Shown: positions 123-37,611 of the stretch, in pieces
Numbering within the stretch: the stretch's first letter is position 1
How the letters are laid out: each line of letters begins with the position of its first letter
Assembly (NCBI GenBank): GCA_028571455.1
Contig: JAPVVG010000216.1
Location: forward strand, 1 to 53,217
Origin: Desulfobacteraceae bacterium
GTDB lineage: Bacteria; Desulfobacterota; Desulfobacteria; Desulfobacterales; ETH-SRB1
DNA: 53,217 bases
Direction of reading: 5' to 3'
Translations under genes and position numbers: made by a program
Notes under the pieces: model-generated
What the model was told of the DNA's origin: nothing
The model's database searches: none
What the model saw: only the letters and a program-made list of their open reading frames with translations

Positions 123-1340
123 ATGGGTATAATAGTACAAAAATTTGGCGGCACTTCAGTAGCCGATCTTGAGCGTATCCGTAATGTAGCAAAGCGGGTC
201 GCAAAAACCTTTGACCAGGGCAATGACGTAGTCGTTGTACTTTCAGCCATGGCAGGTGTCACAGACAGCCTGATCAACATGGCAAATCAGGTTGCTGTTT
301 CACCGGATAAGCGCGAGCTGGATGTTTTGCTGGCCACAGGTGAGCAGACAACCGCAGCTCTTCTGGCGATGACCTTACAATCAATGGGCTATCCGGCTAA
401 ATCCATATTAGGGTATCAGGCAGAAATTATTACCAACCGCAATTATGGCGGCGCCCGTATCATTCAAATAGGAGCAGATCGTATAAAGAAGCTTATTGAA
501 AAACGCAATATAGTAGTGATTGCAGGATTTCAGGGATGTGACCAGGAAGGCAACATAACGACTCTTGGACGTGGCGGCTCAGACACATCTGCTGTGGCAA
601 TAACTGCGGCGCTTAATGCGGACAAATGTGAAATATTTACAGATGTGGACGGCATATATACTGCGGACCCCAATATCTGCGAGAAGGCAAGAAAGCTCAG
701 CGCAATTTCTTATGATGAAATGCTTGAAATGTCAGGACTTGGCGCCAAGGTATTGCAGATTCGATCTGTTGAATTTGCCAAAAAATATAATATTCCTGTG
801 CATGTAAGATCATCGTTCGGCGAGGAGGAAGGTACAATGGTTGTTAATGAAGATTCTGTTATGGAACGTCTAATCGTATCAGGTATAACTCACAGTAAAG
901 ATGCCGCCCGTATAACCCTGAAAAAGGTTCCGGATCAACCCGGGGTAGCTGCAAAGATTTTTTCACCCGTTGCTGACGCTAAAATACTGGTGGATATGAT
1001 TATTCAGAATACCCGCGCCCAAGGGCTGACCGACCTTACATTTACTGTTTCAAAAAAGGATTTCAGGAAGGCGCTGGAAATAGAAAAGCAGGTGGCAGAG
1101 GAGATCGGGGCTGAAAAGGTATTTGGCGACGAAAATATCGCAAAGGTATCTGTTACCGGCGTTGGGATGAGGAGCCATTCAGGAGTAGCGTCAAAGATGT
1201 TTGCGACTCTGGCTGACGAAAATATTAATATCCTTATGATAAGCACATCAGAAATTAGGATTTCCTGTATAATAGAAGAAAAGTATGCTGAGCTGGCTGT
1301 GCGTGTTCTTCACAGCGCATTTGGGCTGGATAAAGATTAG
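123..1340 (+). CDS. lysC: Aspartate kinase
   Basis: [16 protein letters not shown]-terminus and C-terminal ACT domains; full-length 405 aa ORF. Confidence 0.96.
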
Positions 1341-1475
1341 AGGGACGGAGGTCAGAGGTCAGAGCTCTGAGGTCAGAGATCGGAGGTCGGAGATCGGAGG
1401 TCAGAGAACCAATAACCCTGAACTTCAAAATCTTCGTGCGCTTCGTGGTAAAAAAGCAGGGCTGGAGAATAAAAA

Positions 1476-2786
1476 ATGGTAACATTTAAGTCTCTTTGTT
1501 CGGGTAAGGATAAGATTGCCGTAATAGGTCTGGGGTATGTAGGGCTTCCTTTGGCTGTCGGCATGTCGAAACATTTTGAAGTGATCGGGTATGATCTTAA
1601 ATCTGATAGAATTAAGGAGCTTGAGTCCGGCTTTGACCGGACAATGGAAGTTTCAAAGGAGGCTCTGCGCGATGCAAAGATACTGTTTACAAGCAAACCT
1701 GAAAATCTTTCTTTAAGCAGGCTTATTGTCGTTGCCGTGCCTACCCCGATCGACGGGCATCGCATTCCGGATTTAAGCCCGCTTTGCGGGGCTTCGGCAA
1801 CTGTCGGCAGATACATGCGGAAAGGGTCATGCATAGTGTTTGAATCTACAGTATATCCAGGCGCCACAGAAGAGGTTTGCCTCCCCATTCTAAAGAAGGA
1901 GTCAGGGTTTAAGTATGGCGCTGATTTTACGGTAGGCTATTCGCCGGAACGTATAAACCCTGGGGATAAGAAGCATTCATTTGAAAACATAGTAAAGATC
2001 GTTTCAGGATCTAATCAGGATACGACCAGGCTTTTATCCGATGTTTACGGAAGGGTGGTAAAGGCCGGGATACATCCTGTTTCTTCGATCAAGGTGGCTG
2101 AAGCGGCAAAGGTTATTGAGAATACGCAAAGGGATATAAATATAGCCCTTGTCAATGAGCTTGCGATGATTTTTCATAAAATGGGAATAGATACTGAGGA
2201 GGTTCTTGAGGCTGCGGGGACAAAATGGAACTTTCTTCCATTTAGGCCCGGTCTTGTCGGAGGGCACTGCATAGGGGTTGATCCCTACTATTTGACCTTT
2301 AAGGCTGAGTCGCTTGGGTACCATCCTGAAATGATATTAGCCGGCCGCAGGATAAACGACTGCATGGGCAAATATGTAGCGGAGCAGACCGTAAAGCTGC
2401 TTGTGCTGGCGGGGAAACGGATTAAGGACATAAAGGTTGCCGTCTTAGGGGTTACTTTCAAAGAAGATATACCGGATATCAGAAACAGCAAGGTAGTGGA
2501 TATAGTAGATGAGCTTAAAACTTACGGGATTAAAGTTTTGGTGCACGACCCTCTTGCAGATGCCAAAGAGGTTAAAAAATATTACAGGCTTGACCTGCAA
2601 AACATGAAGACCCTTGAAGGGGTTGATGCAGTTATAGTAACGGTTAGGCACAGGCTTTATAAGGAGCTTGGCCTCTCAAAAATTGCCGGTTTATGCCAGG
2701 GCAAAGCGCCTATTGTTATAGATGTTAAAGGGGCCTTTAGTCAGAATGAGGCAAAAAAAATGAATATAACATACTGGAGGCTTTAG
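1476..2786 (+). CDS. Nucleotide sugar dehydrogenase (UDP-N-acetyl-D-galactosamine/glucosamine dehydrogenase, TviB/WbpA-like)
   Basis: IAVIGLGYVGLPLAV Rossmann motif, GGHCIGVDPYYLT catalytic motif. Confidence 0.92.
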   Translation: MVTFKSLCSGKDKIAVIGLGYVGLPLAVGMSKHFEVIGYDLKSDRIKELESGFDRTMEVSKEALRDAKILFTSKPENLSLSRLIVVAVPTPIDGHRIPDLSPLCGASATVGRYMRKGSCIVFESTVYPGATEEVCLPILKKESGFKYGADFTVGYSPERINPGDKKHSFENIVKIVSGSNQDTTRLLSDVYGRVVKAGIHPVSSIKVAEAAKVIENTQRDINIALVNELAMIFHKMGIDTEEVLEAAGTKWNFLPFRPGLVGGHCIGVDPYYLTFKAESLGYHPEMILAGRRINDCMGKYVAEQTVKLLVLAGKRIKDIKVAVLGVTFKEDIPDIRNSKVVDIVDELKTYGIKVLVHDPLADAKEVKKYYRLDLQNMKTLEGVDAVIVTVRHRLYKELGLSKIAGLCQGKAPIVIDVKGAFSQNEAKKMNITYWRL

Positions 2787-2794
2787 CCCGAATA

Positions 2795-3109
2795 TTATAA
2801 TAAAAATTTAACTAAATCGGTTAGATGTTTAAACTCGGCTTCCGAATATTTATTATTCTTATATTTAATAAGAAGATGTTTTATGCGACTTGTATGACCT
2901 GATATTATTTCAATTTTTGACTGTGGAACCTTTAGAACATTTGCCAGATATTTTATACACATCCTGTTTGCAGCTCCATTTACAGGTGGGGCTGTGAGTT
3001 TGATTTTAATCGCATTATCATAAATACCTGCTATCATATTTTTTGAAGCCCTTGGTTGAATAAACACTTTAAATATAATGCCTTTAGTATTTTTATTTAT
3101 AAACAACAT
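2795..3109 (-). CDS. DUF167/YggU family protein
   Basis: VFIQPRASKNMIAGIYDNAIKIKLTAPPVNGAANRMCIKYLA typical of DUF167. Confidence 0.88.
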   Translation of the reverse strand: MLFINKNTKGIIFKVFIQPRASKNMIAGIYDNAIKIKLTAPPVNGAANRMCIKYLANVLKVPQSKIEIISGHTSRIKHLLIKYKNNKYSEAEFKHLTDLVKFLL

Positions 3110-3118
3110 TTTCTAATT

Positions 3119-3215
3119 GAAGCTCCCCGTAGCAAGCTGCGGGGAGCTTCGACCGTAAGGAAGTTTGCTATTTTCAGATTCGCTCGCTAACCCCGCAGCT
3201 TGCTGCGGGGTTAGC
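3119..3215. repeat. Pair of REP-like palindromes
   Basis: gaagctccccgtagcaagctgcggggagcttc (3119-3150) and gctaaccccgcagcttgctgcggggttagc (3186-3215). Confidence 0.8.
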
Positions 3216-3230
3216 GCTCGCTTTTGCGGT

Positions 3231-4697
3231 TCAAACAGCTTCTTTAACATCAAACCGTTTAATATTATTAATAATACTGGTTGACGAGACATTTTTTGTA
3301 ATAGGAATAAGCGCTACCCTTCCGCCGCACCTCTCAACAAGCTGTCTCCCTATAACATCTTCAAATATATAATTACTGCCCTTTGTGAGTATATTTGGAC
3401 GAATAATCTCAATCATTTTATTAAGTTGTTTTGAAGAAAACACCACAACATAATCAACAGAATCTAAAGCGCTTAAGATACTTATCCGCTCTTTTTCGCT
3501 GATTATCGGTCTTCCGGGCTCCTTAAGGCTGCTTACAGACTCATCGTCATCAATAGCAACAATAAGCACATCTCCAAGCTTTTTTGAGGCGGAAAGAAGC
3601 ATAATATGACCTGCATGTAAAAGATCAAAACAACCGTTTGTCAGCACAATTTTTTTATTGTCGGCTTTAAGTTTCAGCACAACGGCCGGAAGTTCTGAAA
3701 AAGATATATGTTTGTTTGAGGCGTAATCACAACCAGGCGTCAAAGCCGATAAAAGTTCATTTTTTGACACAGTTGACGTCCCAACCTTGCTCACCACAAT
3801 GCCCGCCGCTGTATTAGCAATAGACGCTGCTTTTACAAATGAGGCTCCTGAAGCAATTGCAAGCCCCAGGACGGCGATTACCGTATCTCCCGCTCCCGAC
3901 ACGTCGAAAACCTGCTTTGACTGAGCGGTGATATAATAAGGTTTTTTGTCCTCAAATAAAACCATCCCATCCTTGCCGCATGTAATAAGAAGATTTTCTA
4001 TTTTTACATTTTCAAGGATGCTGTTTCCGGCTTTAATTAAGGTTGGTTCGTCGACAATCTCTATTCCAGAGGCAAGGGCTGCTTCCTTTTTGTTTGGTGT
4101 AAGCAAAGAAACACCTGAATATTTTGAAAAATCACGCCCTTTTGGATCAACGATAGTCCGCATGGGCGGATTATGTTTTTTTATAATAGACGTCAGCGAG
4201 TTAAGCAAAGCCGCTGTAATTAACCCCTTGCCATAATCAGAAATTAATACCAGGTCCACATCAGGTATTACACGCTCAATATAATTTAATATAAAATCAA
4301 AGGTTTGTTGGGATACATCTTTTTTTGTTTCCCTGTCGATTCTAAGCACCTGTTGGTTGCCGGAAATAATTCTCGTTTTTCTGGTTGTGGGTCTTTCCGG
4401 CTCCACAACAACCCCCTCGGCATTAACACCAAGCTCGTTTAATTTTGTGAGCAAAAGATGTCCATATCTATCCGAACCTATTACCCCGGCCATTGAAACC
4501 TTTGCTCCAAGCGCTACAAGGTTGTTGGCGACGTTTCCGGATCCACCCAGGGTATAATTTTCTTCTTTAACCGAAACAACCTGGACCGGCGCTTCCGGAG
4601 ATATCCGGTCAACATCACCCCATAAGTATTCATCGATCATTAAATCTCCGACAACAAGGAGATTGCATTTTTCAAATTTTGAAATATCAAAATCCAT
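3231..4697 (-). CDS. hldE: Bifunctional heptose-7-phosphate kinase / heptose-1-phosphate adenylyltransferase
   Basis: PfkB-type kinase (GGSGNVANNL, DVSGAGDTV) fused to nucleotidyltransferase (TNGCFDLLHAGH); likely start MDFDISKF within the longer ORF. Confidence 0.93.
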   Translation of the reverse strand: MDFDISKFEKCNLLVVGDLMIDEYLWGDVDRISPEAPVQVVSVKEENYTLGGSGNVANNLVALGAKVSMAGVIGSDRYGHLLLTKLNELGVNAEGVVVEPERPTTRKTRIISGNQQVLRIDRETKKDVSQQTFDFILNYIERVIPDVDLVLISDYGKGLITAALLNSLTSIIKKHNPPMRTIVDPKGRDFSKYSGVSLLTPNKKEAALASGIEIVDEPTLIKAGNSILENVKIENLLITCGKDGMVLFEDKKPYYITAQSKQVFDVSGAGDTVIAVLGLAIASGASFVKAASIANTAAGIVVSKVGTSTVSKNELLSALTPGCDYASNKHISFSELPAVVLKLKADNKKIVLTNGCFDLLHAGHIMLLSASKKLGDVLIVAIDDDESVSSLKEPGRPIISEKERISILSALDSVDYVVVFSSKQLNKMIEIIRPNILTKGSNYIFEDVIGRQLVERCGGRVALIPITKNVSSTSIINNIKRFDVKEAV

Positions 4698-24834: not shown

Positions 24835-25137
24835 GTAACCGCTCACAGTTCACAGTTTTTTATTGATTGCTCTTCTGTTTTTTTCAACCGGGAACTGATA
24901 ACTGTGAACTGTGAACCATGAACGTTGAACCGCTCAACTTAGGTTTATATCTCCGATCTCTGACTTCCGACTTCCGACTTCTGACTTCCGACTTCTGACC
25001 TCCGATCTCTGACCTCCGATCTCTGACCTCCGATCTCTGACTTCCGTCCTCTGACTTCTGACTTCTGACTTCTGACTTCTGACTTCTGACTTCTGACTTC
25101 TGACTTCTGATCTCTGACTTCCGTCCTCCGTCCCTAC
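24835..25137. repeat. Composite iteron region: TTGAACC/AACTGTG heptamers (inverted) followed by long CTGACTT/CCGATCT heptamer array
   Basis: ctcacagttcacagtt / aactgtgaactgtgaac inverted pair; (ctgactt)n heptamers ~24950-25130. Confidence 0.85.
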
Positions 25138-26318
25138 GATCTGTAATCAGCATTTATCTTAATATAATCAATGGAGAAATCGCAGGTAAAAACCGAGGAA
25201 AATCCCTTGCCCTGATGAAGATCGATTAACACGGTAAATTCAGGTTTTTTGAGTACCTTTGTTGACGCGGCTTCAGCGGCTTTTCCGCATCCCAAACCGT
25301 TTTTAACCATCATAATATCATCAAAGAAGATATCAATCTTATCAGGATTAATAGGAACATCGGCTCTGCCTGCTGCTGCAATAATTCTTCCCCAGTTTGC
25401 GTCTTCTCCGAAAAAGGCTGTTTTTACAAGATTTGAATTTGCCACAATGCCGGCGATTTTATAGGCGTCTGTGTCTGATAGCGCCCCCTTTACGACAATT
25501 TCGACCAGCTTTGTTGCCCCCTCTCCGTCTTTCACTATTTTTTTTGCAAGGCTTGTCAGGACATTATCGAGCATGTTTTGAAATAAATGATTATGGGAAG
25601 AACTTGTCATTGTTGCTTTTGACAAACCGTTTGCCATGATAATAACAGTGTCATTTGTGCTCATGTCGCCGTCAATGGTTATTCTGTTAAAGGATCGTTT
25701 GGTTGCACTATTAAGGGATTTGTGCAGAAATTCGGGCGAAACTTTAAGGTCTGTGCAGACAAAACAAAGCATTGTGGCCATTGATGGGCATATCATGCCG
25801 GCTCCTTTGGCTATGCCGGTTATTGTAAAGGTTTTGCCTTCAATATTTCCCTGGGTGGAAACCATTTTTGGCACAGTATCGGTTGTCATTATGGCTCTGG
25901 CAAGATCGTAAAATCCTTCAGACGCAAGAGCTTTGACAAGGCCGGGAGTTGCGGTCTCGATCTTATTAATCGGTAAAGGCTCGCCAATAACCCCTGTTGA
26001 AGCCACAAGCACCAGCTCTTCGGAAATTCCAAGTTCAGATGCGCAAAGCCTTGCCATGTTTTTTGCATCGTTAATTCCCTGTTTGCCGGTGCAGCAGTTT
26101 GCATTGCCGCTGTTAATAACAACCGCCTGGCAAAGGCCGGACTTTATCCGCTCCCTGTCAAGCAGTATATGTGCACCCTGCACCCTGTTTCTTGTAAACA
26201 CACCGGCTGCATTTGCGGGAACCGTTGAAAAGATCAGCCCCAGGTCCTTTTCGACATTTTTTTTAAGCCCGGATGCAATCCCTGCGGCCTTAAAGCCCGG
26301 GCACAATATTTTTTTCAT
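25134..26318 (-). CDS. argJ: Bifunctional glutamate N-acetyltransferase/amino-acid acetyltransferase
   Basis: KGAGMICPSMATMLCF autoprocessing motif; FGEDANWGRI; start chosen at MKKILCPGFKAAG inside the longer ORF. Confidence 0.95.
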   Translation of the reverse strand: MKKILCPGFKAAGIASGLKKNVEKDLGLIFSTVPANAAGVFTRNRVQGAHILLDRERIKSGLCQAVVINSGNANCCTGKQGINDAKNMARLCASELGISEELVLVASTGVIGEPLPINKIETATPGLVKALASEGFYDLARAIMTTDTVPKMVSTQGNIEGKTFTITGIAKGAGMICPSMATMLCFVCTDLKVSPEFLHKSLNSATKRSFNRITIDGDMSTNDTVIIMANGLSKATMTSSSHNHLFQNMLDNVLTSLAKKIVKDGEGATKLVEIVVKGALSDTDAYKIAGIVANSNLVKTAFFGEDANWGRIIAAAGRADVPINPDKIDIFFDDIMMVKNGLGCGKAAEAASTKVLKKPEFTVLIDLHQGKGFSSVFTCDFSIDYIKINADYRS

Positions 26319-26439
26319 ATTATCCATTTCTCTTAATATTGACATTTAAGATTTTTCCCTTTGGTCGAAATGACAACAAGCAGGGTTTTCATTCAGCCAC
26401 TATATACCATTATTTGTAATGAAAATGCAAAAATTATAT

Positions 26440-26805
26440 GTAGCCGTTCACGGCTTGAAGCTTGAAATTGGAAAGTAGAAATTGGGAAGAGATGAAACGA
26501 GTTTACGAGTTAGATGTTTACAAACTGGCAGAAGCGTTATCAAATATGGTCTATGGTCTGGCACGATTTTGATAAGTGGAACAAAAAGGTTCATTTAAAG
26601 AAACCAAATCATGGTTGCGAAAACTCATCAGAAGAAAAGTTTTATCTGAGTCAAACGCGAGAGAATACAAAGCAATAGTTGAAAAACTCGGCCCCAAATT
26701 GAATGCGTTCATTAACAGTACACGTGCAGCGCAGGCGCTTGCGCCGCGTGAAAGCATGAAGGCCAAATTTCTAATTTCTAATTTCAACGTTCCGTGAATG
26801 CTTAC
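26440..26805. mobile_element. TIR element (GTAGCCGTTCACGG / GTAAGCATTCACGG ends) carrying a decayed four-helix-bundle gene
   Basis: TIRs plus exact 8-bp duplication AATTATAT (26432-26439 and 26806-26813). Confidence 0.8.
26492..26797 (+). pseudogene. S23-type four-helix-bundle protein, decayed
   Basis: MKRVYELDVYKLAEALSNMV, 7-bp duplication frameshift (tatggtctatggtc), HDFDKW, then internal deletion to GSFKETKSWLRKLIRRKVLSESNAREYKAIVEKLGPKLNAFINST. Confidence 0.83.
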
Positions 26806-26877
26806 AATTATATCATTCCAAAAGCCTCGAAAGCTTTTAGTTCAGATGAGCGCATTTTCTGATGAAAGGCATGCAAC

Positions 26878-26998
26878 GAGACCTTTGAATTTTGTCATTT
26901 CGAGGAGTGTCAACGACGAGAAATCTTAATGATTCAAGTCCGTTAAGATTTCTCCCTTCGGTCGAAATGACAAATAACGATGGTTTTTCAAAGGTCTC
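26878..26998. mobile_element. MITE-like element, GAGACCTTTG-end family, copy 2
   Basis: GAGACCTTTGAA / TTCAAAGGTCTC; exact 5-bp duplication GCAAC (26873-26877 and 26999-27003); nested palindrome TGTCATTTCG...CGAAATGACA. Confidence 0.8.
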
Positions 26999-27084: not shown

Positions 27085-27549
27085 TTACTTCTTCTTTTTG
27101 GGATGGCACTTTGTACAGGTTGTAGGCGCTGCTTTTGTACCGGTTTTCTTATTGAACTTCTTATGGCAACCCTTGCAGTTGTAGTGAATCGCCTCGGCAT
27201 GGTATTCTAATCTTTGTTTCTTTGTAAGCTTCGGCGCACCCTTTCCCTTTGGTCTTTCACTGGCTATTTTATGGCACTCGATGCAATTCTGGACATTATC
27301 ACCTGCTTTCAGATTATTAAGAGGTTTGTTGTCTGCATCATGGTGACATTCTCCGCAGCCTGCTTTATAATCCTCGATATGCTTCTTATGTGAAAACGTG
27401 ACTATGCTCTTTTTATGCTTAGCATAAGCCTTGTTTTCCATCTTGATCACATCAGGAACAGTAGTGCCAGCATAAATACCGGTTGCAACAAACAGGGCGG
27501 CAATACCAAAAACAGCCATAACTATCAGATATTTTTTACGCATAAACAC
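27085..27549 (-). CDS. Tetraheme cytochrome c3 (class III)
   Basis: Signal peptide and four CxxCH motifs (CGECH, CIECH, CKGCH, CTKCH), SHKKH heme ligand motif. Confidence 0.92.
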   Translation of the reverse strand: MFMRKKYLIVMAVFGIAALFVATGIYAGTTVPDVIKMENKAYAKHKKSIVTFSHKKHIEDYKAGCGECHHDADNKPLNNLKAGDNVQNCIECHKIASERPKGKGAPKLTKKQRLEYHAEAIHYNCKGCHKKFNKKTGTKAAPTTCTKCHPKKKK

Positions 27550-28919: not shown

Positions 28920-29218
28920 GTAAACGTTCACAGGTTGCATTTATGCCATACGGAGTTGTTTTGAAAGATGAGCGTCCACTACACATTAAAAGATGAACGT
29001 CCAACATCGAACGTCGAACGTCCAACATCGAATGATGAAATCGCTTCGCTCCGCTAGTTTATAAATTGGCAGAATACCTTATTCGATGTTCATAGCCTTT
29101 TAGCTTTTTCTCGTTCCCACGCTCCTGCGTGGGAATGTATACCATATGGGTTCCCACGCAGGAGCGTGGGAACCAGGGATCCTATAATAAAGTTAACCTC
29201 TGAACCGTGAACGGTTAC
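28920..29218. mobile_element. TIR element (GTAAACGTTCACAGGTT / GTAACCGTTCACGGTTC ends), non-coding
   Basis: TIRs plus exact 8-bp duplication AATTATAG (28912-28919 and 29219-29226); contains octamer iterons and GTTCCCACGC palindromes. Confidence 0.8.
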
Positions 29219-37504: not shown

Positions 37505-37611
37505 ATAGCCGTTCACGGCTTGAAACTTGAAATTGGAAATTGGGAAGAACAGTACAAAAGCATGAAGGCCAAATTTCTAATTTCTAATTTCAACGTTCCG
37601 TGAACGCTTAC
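37505..37611. mobile_element. Internally deleted copy of the GTAGCCGTTCACGG TIR element
   Basis: tagccgttcacggcttgaaacttgaaattgg ... gcatgaaggccaaatttctaatttctaatttcaacgttccgtgaacgcttac; near-perfect 8-bp duplication caaaaaag/caataaag. Confidence 0.75.

Follow-up and report, generated by a model that had tools for sequence, protein, structure and literature searches.

Proteins of the S23 type (PF05635) have been known for decades from rRNA inserts, and no function has been assigned to them. The 23S rRNA intervening sequence (IVS) of Coxiella carries GACAGAT heptamers upstream of the S23p open reading frame (ORF) together with a 28-bp stem (PMC4990558), and Avd of the diversity-generating retroelements represents a homologous four-helix-bundle (4HB) family (PMC10053308). 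Intergenic TAACTGA direct repeats, the origin of which is unclear, were described in Beggiatoaceae in a paper that does not mention four-helix-bundle/S23 genes (PMC4679880). IS66 insertion sequences are characterized by a terminal inverted repeat beginning with GTAAGCG and an 8-bp direct repeat (PMC11946415; PMC3281130). Mobile insertion cassettes (MICs) and MITEs have IS-type ends and a target-site duplication (TSD) in common, the former enclosing a passenger gene without a transposase and the latter being internal-deletion derivatives.

Here, we analyzed a 53,217-nucleotide stretch of DNA from a Desulfobacteraceae bacterium, which will be referred to as the window and which contains a short element with a decayed 4HB gene. 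This element shares with IS66 insertion sequences (PF03050 TnpC) the GTAA-type ends, the 8-bp TSD and, in the case of one IS66 element, an identical 14-bp end motif; unlike them, it comprises 366 bp and contains no transposase, only the 4HB gene being left. It resembles MICs and MITEs in its general organization, whereas the window-type passenger is a PF05635 gene within inverted heptad arrays. In the 23S rRNA IVS with S23p of Coxiella and Leptospira, a PF05635-type gene is likewise found in a hairpin closed by inverted repeats. By contrast, the window cassette has IS66 ends and a TSD, and by its location between protein genes (25134-26345 and 27085-27549) and not in a 23S gene it is not a 23S rRNA IVS. 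The 23S genes assembled for two genomes (G001 and G007) showed no large insert, the 23S of the window's own genome not being assembled. In contrast to Avd systems, the intact cassettes are devoid of a reverse transcriptase, template or variable repeat. The Beggiatoaceae repeats are similar in being intergenic tandem heptads, and a PF05635 gene of a family relative (L263 in genome G008) is flanked by TAACTGA. A literature search retrieved no description of a PF05635 cassette with inverted heptad arrays and no paper combining "IS66" and "four helix bundle".

Results and Discussion

The window element (26440-26805) is bounded by imperfect 14-bp terminal inverted repeats (TIRs) and an exact 8-bp duplication of the target, AATTATAT (Table 1). 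The left end, GTAGCCGTTCACGGCTTGAAG, begins at the first of these positions and the right end, GTAAGCATTCACGG as reverse complement, stops at the last. The 338 bp between the TIRs have GAAATT-type heptads at both margins, which are mutually inverted. The TIRs, the 8-bp duplication and the doubled tatggtc reported in a preliminary description of the locus are all seen in the sequence; its inverted ends are retained here, but they extend over only ~14 bp, the GAAATT-type stretch representing a separate inverted heptad array. Compared with the intact 452-bp cassette L085, the window copy has gained a 7-bp duplication and a 28-bp insert and has lost 121 bp between two AGGTTCA copies, by which the internal deletion previously noted in the 4HB gene is now defined. 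With L085 as reference, the length is accounted for exactly (452+7-121+28 = 366). Another dispersed repeat (TTAAGATTTCTCCCTTCGGTCGAAATGACA type), numerous in the genome and its relatives, is present at 26333-26406 and 26943-26973.

Table 1: Features of the 366-bp element and of further elements in the window.
Feature	Position	Strand	Evidence
Left TSD copy AATTATAT	26432..26439	.	Single octamer at the G005 empty site
Left TIR GTAGCCGTTCACGG, IS66-type end	26440..26453	+	Sequence; end-motif genome count; IS66 element ends
Left heptad array CTTGAAG CTTGAAA TTGGAAA GTAGAAA TTGGGAA	26454..26488	+	Sequence
Decayed PF05635 4HB ORF, 5' part (MKRVYELDVYKLAE...), from ATG to deletion junction	26492..26593	+	Alignment with intact L085
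tatggtc x2, 7-bp tandem duplication, frameshift	26545..26558	+	Sequence; L085 alignment
AGGTTCA junction repeat of the 121-bp internal deletion	26587..26593	+	L085 alignment
Decayed 4HB ORF, 3' part (..ETKSWLRKLIRRKVLSES..KLGPKLNAFINST)	26594..26721	+	L085 alignment
28-bp GC-rich palindromic insert near ORF end, also in copies L039 and L063	about 26722..26750	+	L085 alignment
Right heptad array, inverted; TTGAAAT TAGAAAT TAGAAAT on minus strand	26766..26787	-	Sequence
Right TIR GTAAGCATTCACGG	26792..26805	-	Sequence; end-motif genome count
Right TSD copy AATTATAT	26806..26813	.	Sequence; G005 empty site
Second copy of the same family, 107-bp internal-deletion derivative, flanks CAAAAAAG/CAATAAAG (7/8)	37505..37611	+	
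Element with same end class and different interior, no 4HB, exact TSD AATTATAG	28920..29218	-	

The end motif GTANNCNTTCACGG was found 79 times as an exact match in the 2.93-Mb genome versus 0 times for the reversed-motif control. Among 33 inward-facing end pairs separated by less than 700 bp, the flanking octamers were identical in 11 and agreed in 7/8 positions in three; this frequency of matches of at least 7/8 (14/33) compares with 0.6% among mismatched flanks, and the TSDs consist of 84% A+T. The other 19 pairs are without a good TSD, which counts against the explanation favored below. The copies are polar, with one end mostly GTA(G/A)CCGTTCACGGCTTGAAACTTGAAATTGG and the opposite end GTAAGCGTTCACGGAACGTTGAAATTAG, and range in length from 69 to 382 bp as internal-deletion derivatives. 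A BLAST search with the intact element yielded 109 segments in the genome. Contig ends cut the 5' part of the element on C23 and C69 and its 3' part on C214 and C255, which would be the outcome if the assembly had been interrupted by longer copies. In the congener G005, the orthologous intergenic site is empty and contains one octamer (AATGAAAATGCAAAAACTATATCATTCC); this site, AATGAAAATGCAAAAACTATATCATTCCAACAG, corresponds to the joined flanks, with octamer AACTATAT in place of AATTATAT. The empty site with its single octamer thus agrees with the earlier expectation for syntenic genomes, and the view that the window element is a degenerate member of a small element family with TIRs and TSDs is borne out by the 79 end-motif matches and by the existence of intact copies.

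Such copies were obtained by using the 3' part of the window 4HB protein as query against named genomes, which revealed relatives in Desulfobacterota, Bacteroidota, Neomarinimicrobiota, Verrucomicrobia and Lentisphaerae, among other groups. Both ends together with an exact TSD are present in five cassettes: L085 (452 bp, ACAATTTC), L091 (495 bp, AAAAATTC), L098 (446 bp, AAAAAACT), L103 (493 bp, GAAATATT) and L132 (594 bp, GAAAATAC), the ORF of the last departing from the family frame near its 3' end. These intact 446-594-bp cassettes with a PF05635 (S23/23S-IVP) gene occur in Desulfobacterota, Bacteroidota and Neomarinimicrobiota, and the question raised earlier, whether intact copies contain a full-length 4HB gene, is answered by full-length or near full-length genes. 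The L085 ORF matched PF05635 with 82.6 bits (Pfam cut-off 33.8); the 3' fragment of the window 4HB gene alone gave no match to this family. Between distant intact copies dN/dS was ~0.07-0.15, and this low ratio indicates that the 4HB gene has been under purifying selection. A further type of 4HB protein (GTTAGGCT-type) is distant from the L085-type.

To identify the origin of the ends, IS66-family elements of the same order were screened for theirs. A 2818-bp IS66 element (L224, positions 475-3292; genome G064) has perfect 14-bp GTAACCGTTCACGG ends and the TSD GAATATTA, and encodes TnpC (PF03050) as well as a DruA-like protein (PF14236). A second IS66 copy (L225) has no TSD, and in the window's assembled genome a PF03050 search gave no match and no intact IS66 transposase; both points count against the explanation favored below. 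Searching with the L224 TnpC, however, detected a decayed IS66 relic in the window's own genome (contig C133) with 81% identity over 1428 bp, beginning at base 1 of the end motif. The ends of the window element are of the IS66 class (GTAA..TTCACGG), the left end (GTAGCC..) being one base off GTAA, and the published IS66 traits agree with the window element family. Moreover, the same ends enclose unrelated interiors in the element at 28920-29218 and in L067, a behavior to be expected if a transposase recognises them. Seven of 82 near full-length 4HB genes are bordered by IS66-like ends on either side (0 for the control pattern), and in five of the seven the TSD copies differ by no more than one base. 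One gene with IS66-like ends (L262) falls outside the window subfamily, so that at least two 4HB subfamilies have been captured by these ends.

Several further observations were made on these elements. A 2.2-kb end pair in G064 (L188) was rejected as an autonomous element, as it has no TSD and contains an IS3-like ORF pair. The accessory gene of L224 matches PF14236 DruA, named from the Druantia defence system, and is here part of an insertion sequence. The interior of the 28920-29218 element contains nested GATGTTGGACGTTC heptads and CCCACGCTCCTGCGTGGGA palindromes. A second end class, GTAACTACTCAGG, on L001, L013 and L015 matches another IS66 element (L214); a TSD was found in none of the three, and their classification as IS66 ends is only suggestive.

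Since the ends are those of the IS66 family, are shared with a transposase-encoding element and with unrelated interiors, and accompany only 7/82 of the genes, the 4HB gene is best read as a passenger. In the preliminary description it had been considered as cargo or as a mobility or regulatory factor; the reading as cargo is retained, whereas the ends can no longer be taken as a signature of the 4HB gene. With a probability of roughly 0.87, the window element is a mobile insertion cassette of the non-autonomous IS66 type that carried a 4HB passenger and was reduced to a MITE-like relic. It is not an autonomous 4HB transposon but a MITE-like decay product. New is the PF05635 passenger; the kind of non-autonomous IS66 element is known. 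Independent acquisition of matching ends appears unlikely, judging from the 14-bp match and the same TSD length. An IS66 transposase supplied in trans would have moved the cassette via its 14-bp ends with the 4HB gene riding as passenger, and the copies would afterwards have decayed through slippage between short repeats.

Two other modes of mobility were weighed. The 4HB protein might itself drive the movement of a self-mobilising element with the IS66-like ends as its own, which would suit the finding that intact cassettes encode the 4HB ORF only and that 4HB genes lacking IS66 ends likewise differ in their presence from one related genome to another. Nevertheless, the PF05635 protein is a small helical bundle (that of L085 is related in sequence to PDB 2gsc) in which a domain search found no transposase domain, and identical ends are located on an element with the DDE transposase of IS66. 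Most 4HB genes are without these ends, and many moved copies in which the 4HB gene is mostly lost still have TSDs; altogether, self-mobilisation is very unlikely. Even less probable, to a degree that we hardly consider it, are REP/BIME-like palindromes moved by a Y1 (RAYT) transposase. The GTAG/GTAA foot with its hairpin (CCGTTCACGG) is REP-like, and the tips consist of GTAG plus an imperfect palindrome in paired inverted arrangement, but the match to IS66 ends is perfect, and the 8-bp TSDs and the one-octamer empty site point to a DDE transposase. As the RAYT class inserts without an 8-bp duplication, it was rejected on the TSDs.

The IS66-type cassette accounts for a minority of the 4HB genes. 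Two cassettes without IS66 ends (L005 and L008) occupy intergenic sites in the window's genome, and in other species these sites either lack a cassette or carry another heptad array. Such presence and absence indicates that non-IS66 4HB units also come and go; a clean target duplication was not found at either cassette in the comparison with relatives. At the orthologous sites of L008 (L306, L304, L308), different arrays with signs of nesting are present in different congeners.

4HB genes are typically located between tandem 7- or 8-bp arrays, one upstream and an inverted one downstream. By a fixed criterion, arrays were detected for 55% of the 82 4HB genes, whereas among 197 control ORFs, taken from the same loci and the window, the share was 0.5%. 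Within a gene, the similarity of the upstream array to the reverse-complemented downstream array was 0.46, compared to 0.07 on the same strand, and arrays of genes with less than 40% protein identity showed a similarity of 0.02. Array similarity tracks protein identity with a Mantel r of 0.72 (permutation maximum 0.19) in a sample consisting mostly of relatives of one 4HB subfamily, and with r = 0.42 (permutation maximum 0.19) outside this dominant subfamily. Between phyla, array similarity reached 0.31 at protein identities of at least 65% versus 0.02 below 35%. Array sequence thus follows the protein subfamily rather than the host phylum, which suggests that the 4HB protein recognises the array flanking its gene and probably binds it, as RNA or DNA. 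The correlation supports such recognition but does not prove it, since shared ancestry is not taken into account in the permutation. The arrays together with the ends let the element fold into a single long hairpin enclosing the ORF, with z values of -6.1 for L085 and -2.9 for the window copy. In the window, a long tandem heptad array without a 4HB gene (SEVRSQKSEVRSQ in one frame) extends over 24884-25153 and resembles the GTCGGAGGTCAGAG arrays that flank a 4HB gene of this genome (L004).

For the arrays alone, passive linkage has to be considered, according to which functionless repeats are merely co-inherited with the gene. Array and gene travel together, slippage can homogenise tandem repeats, and some similar 4HB proteins have dissimilar arrays, all of which is in line with this explanation. 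It does not readily explain heptad similarity across phyla well above the baseline, nor that this similarity holds on both sides in inverted orientation, and we regard it as rather unlikely.

Conclusions

The association of array and protein is the more surprising part of the findings, compared to the IS66 cassette. Tentatively, and at somewhat less than even odds, PF05635 proteins may bind their own arrays in a sequence-specific manner, and the gene with its inverted arrays would constitute a widespread class of hairpin cassettes dispersing between genes, sometimes with captured IS66 ends; rRNA IVS and TAACTGA-type heptads would then represent special cases or footprints of this class. The Coxiella IVS heptamers and the TAACTGA repeats, the latter putatively linked to 4HB genes, are possibly such cases of array-flanked 4HB genes.

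IS66-type passengers represent one concrete route for PF05635 genes between sites and perhaps between phyla. The subfamily-specific inverted arrays hint at what the PF05635 protein recognises, and intergenic heptad repeats of unexplained source may have originated from arrays linked to 4HB genes.
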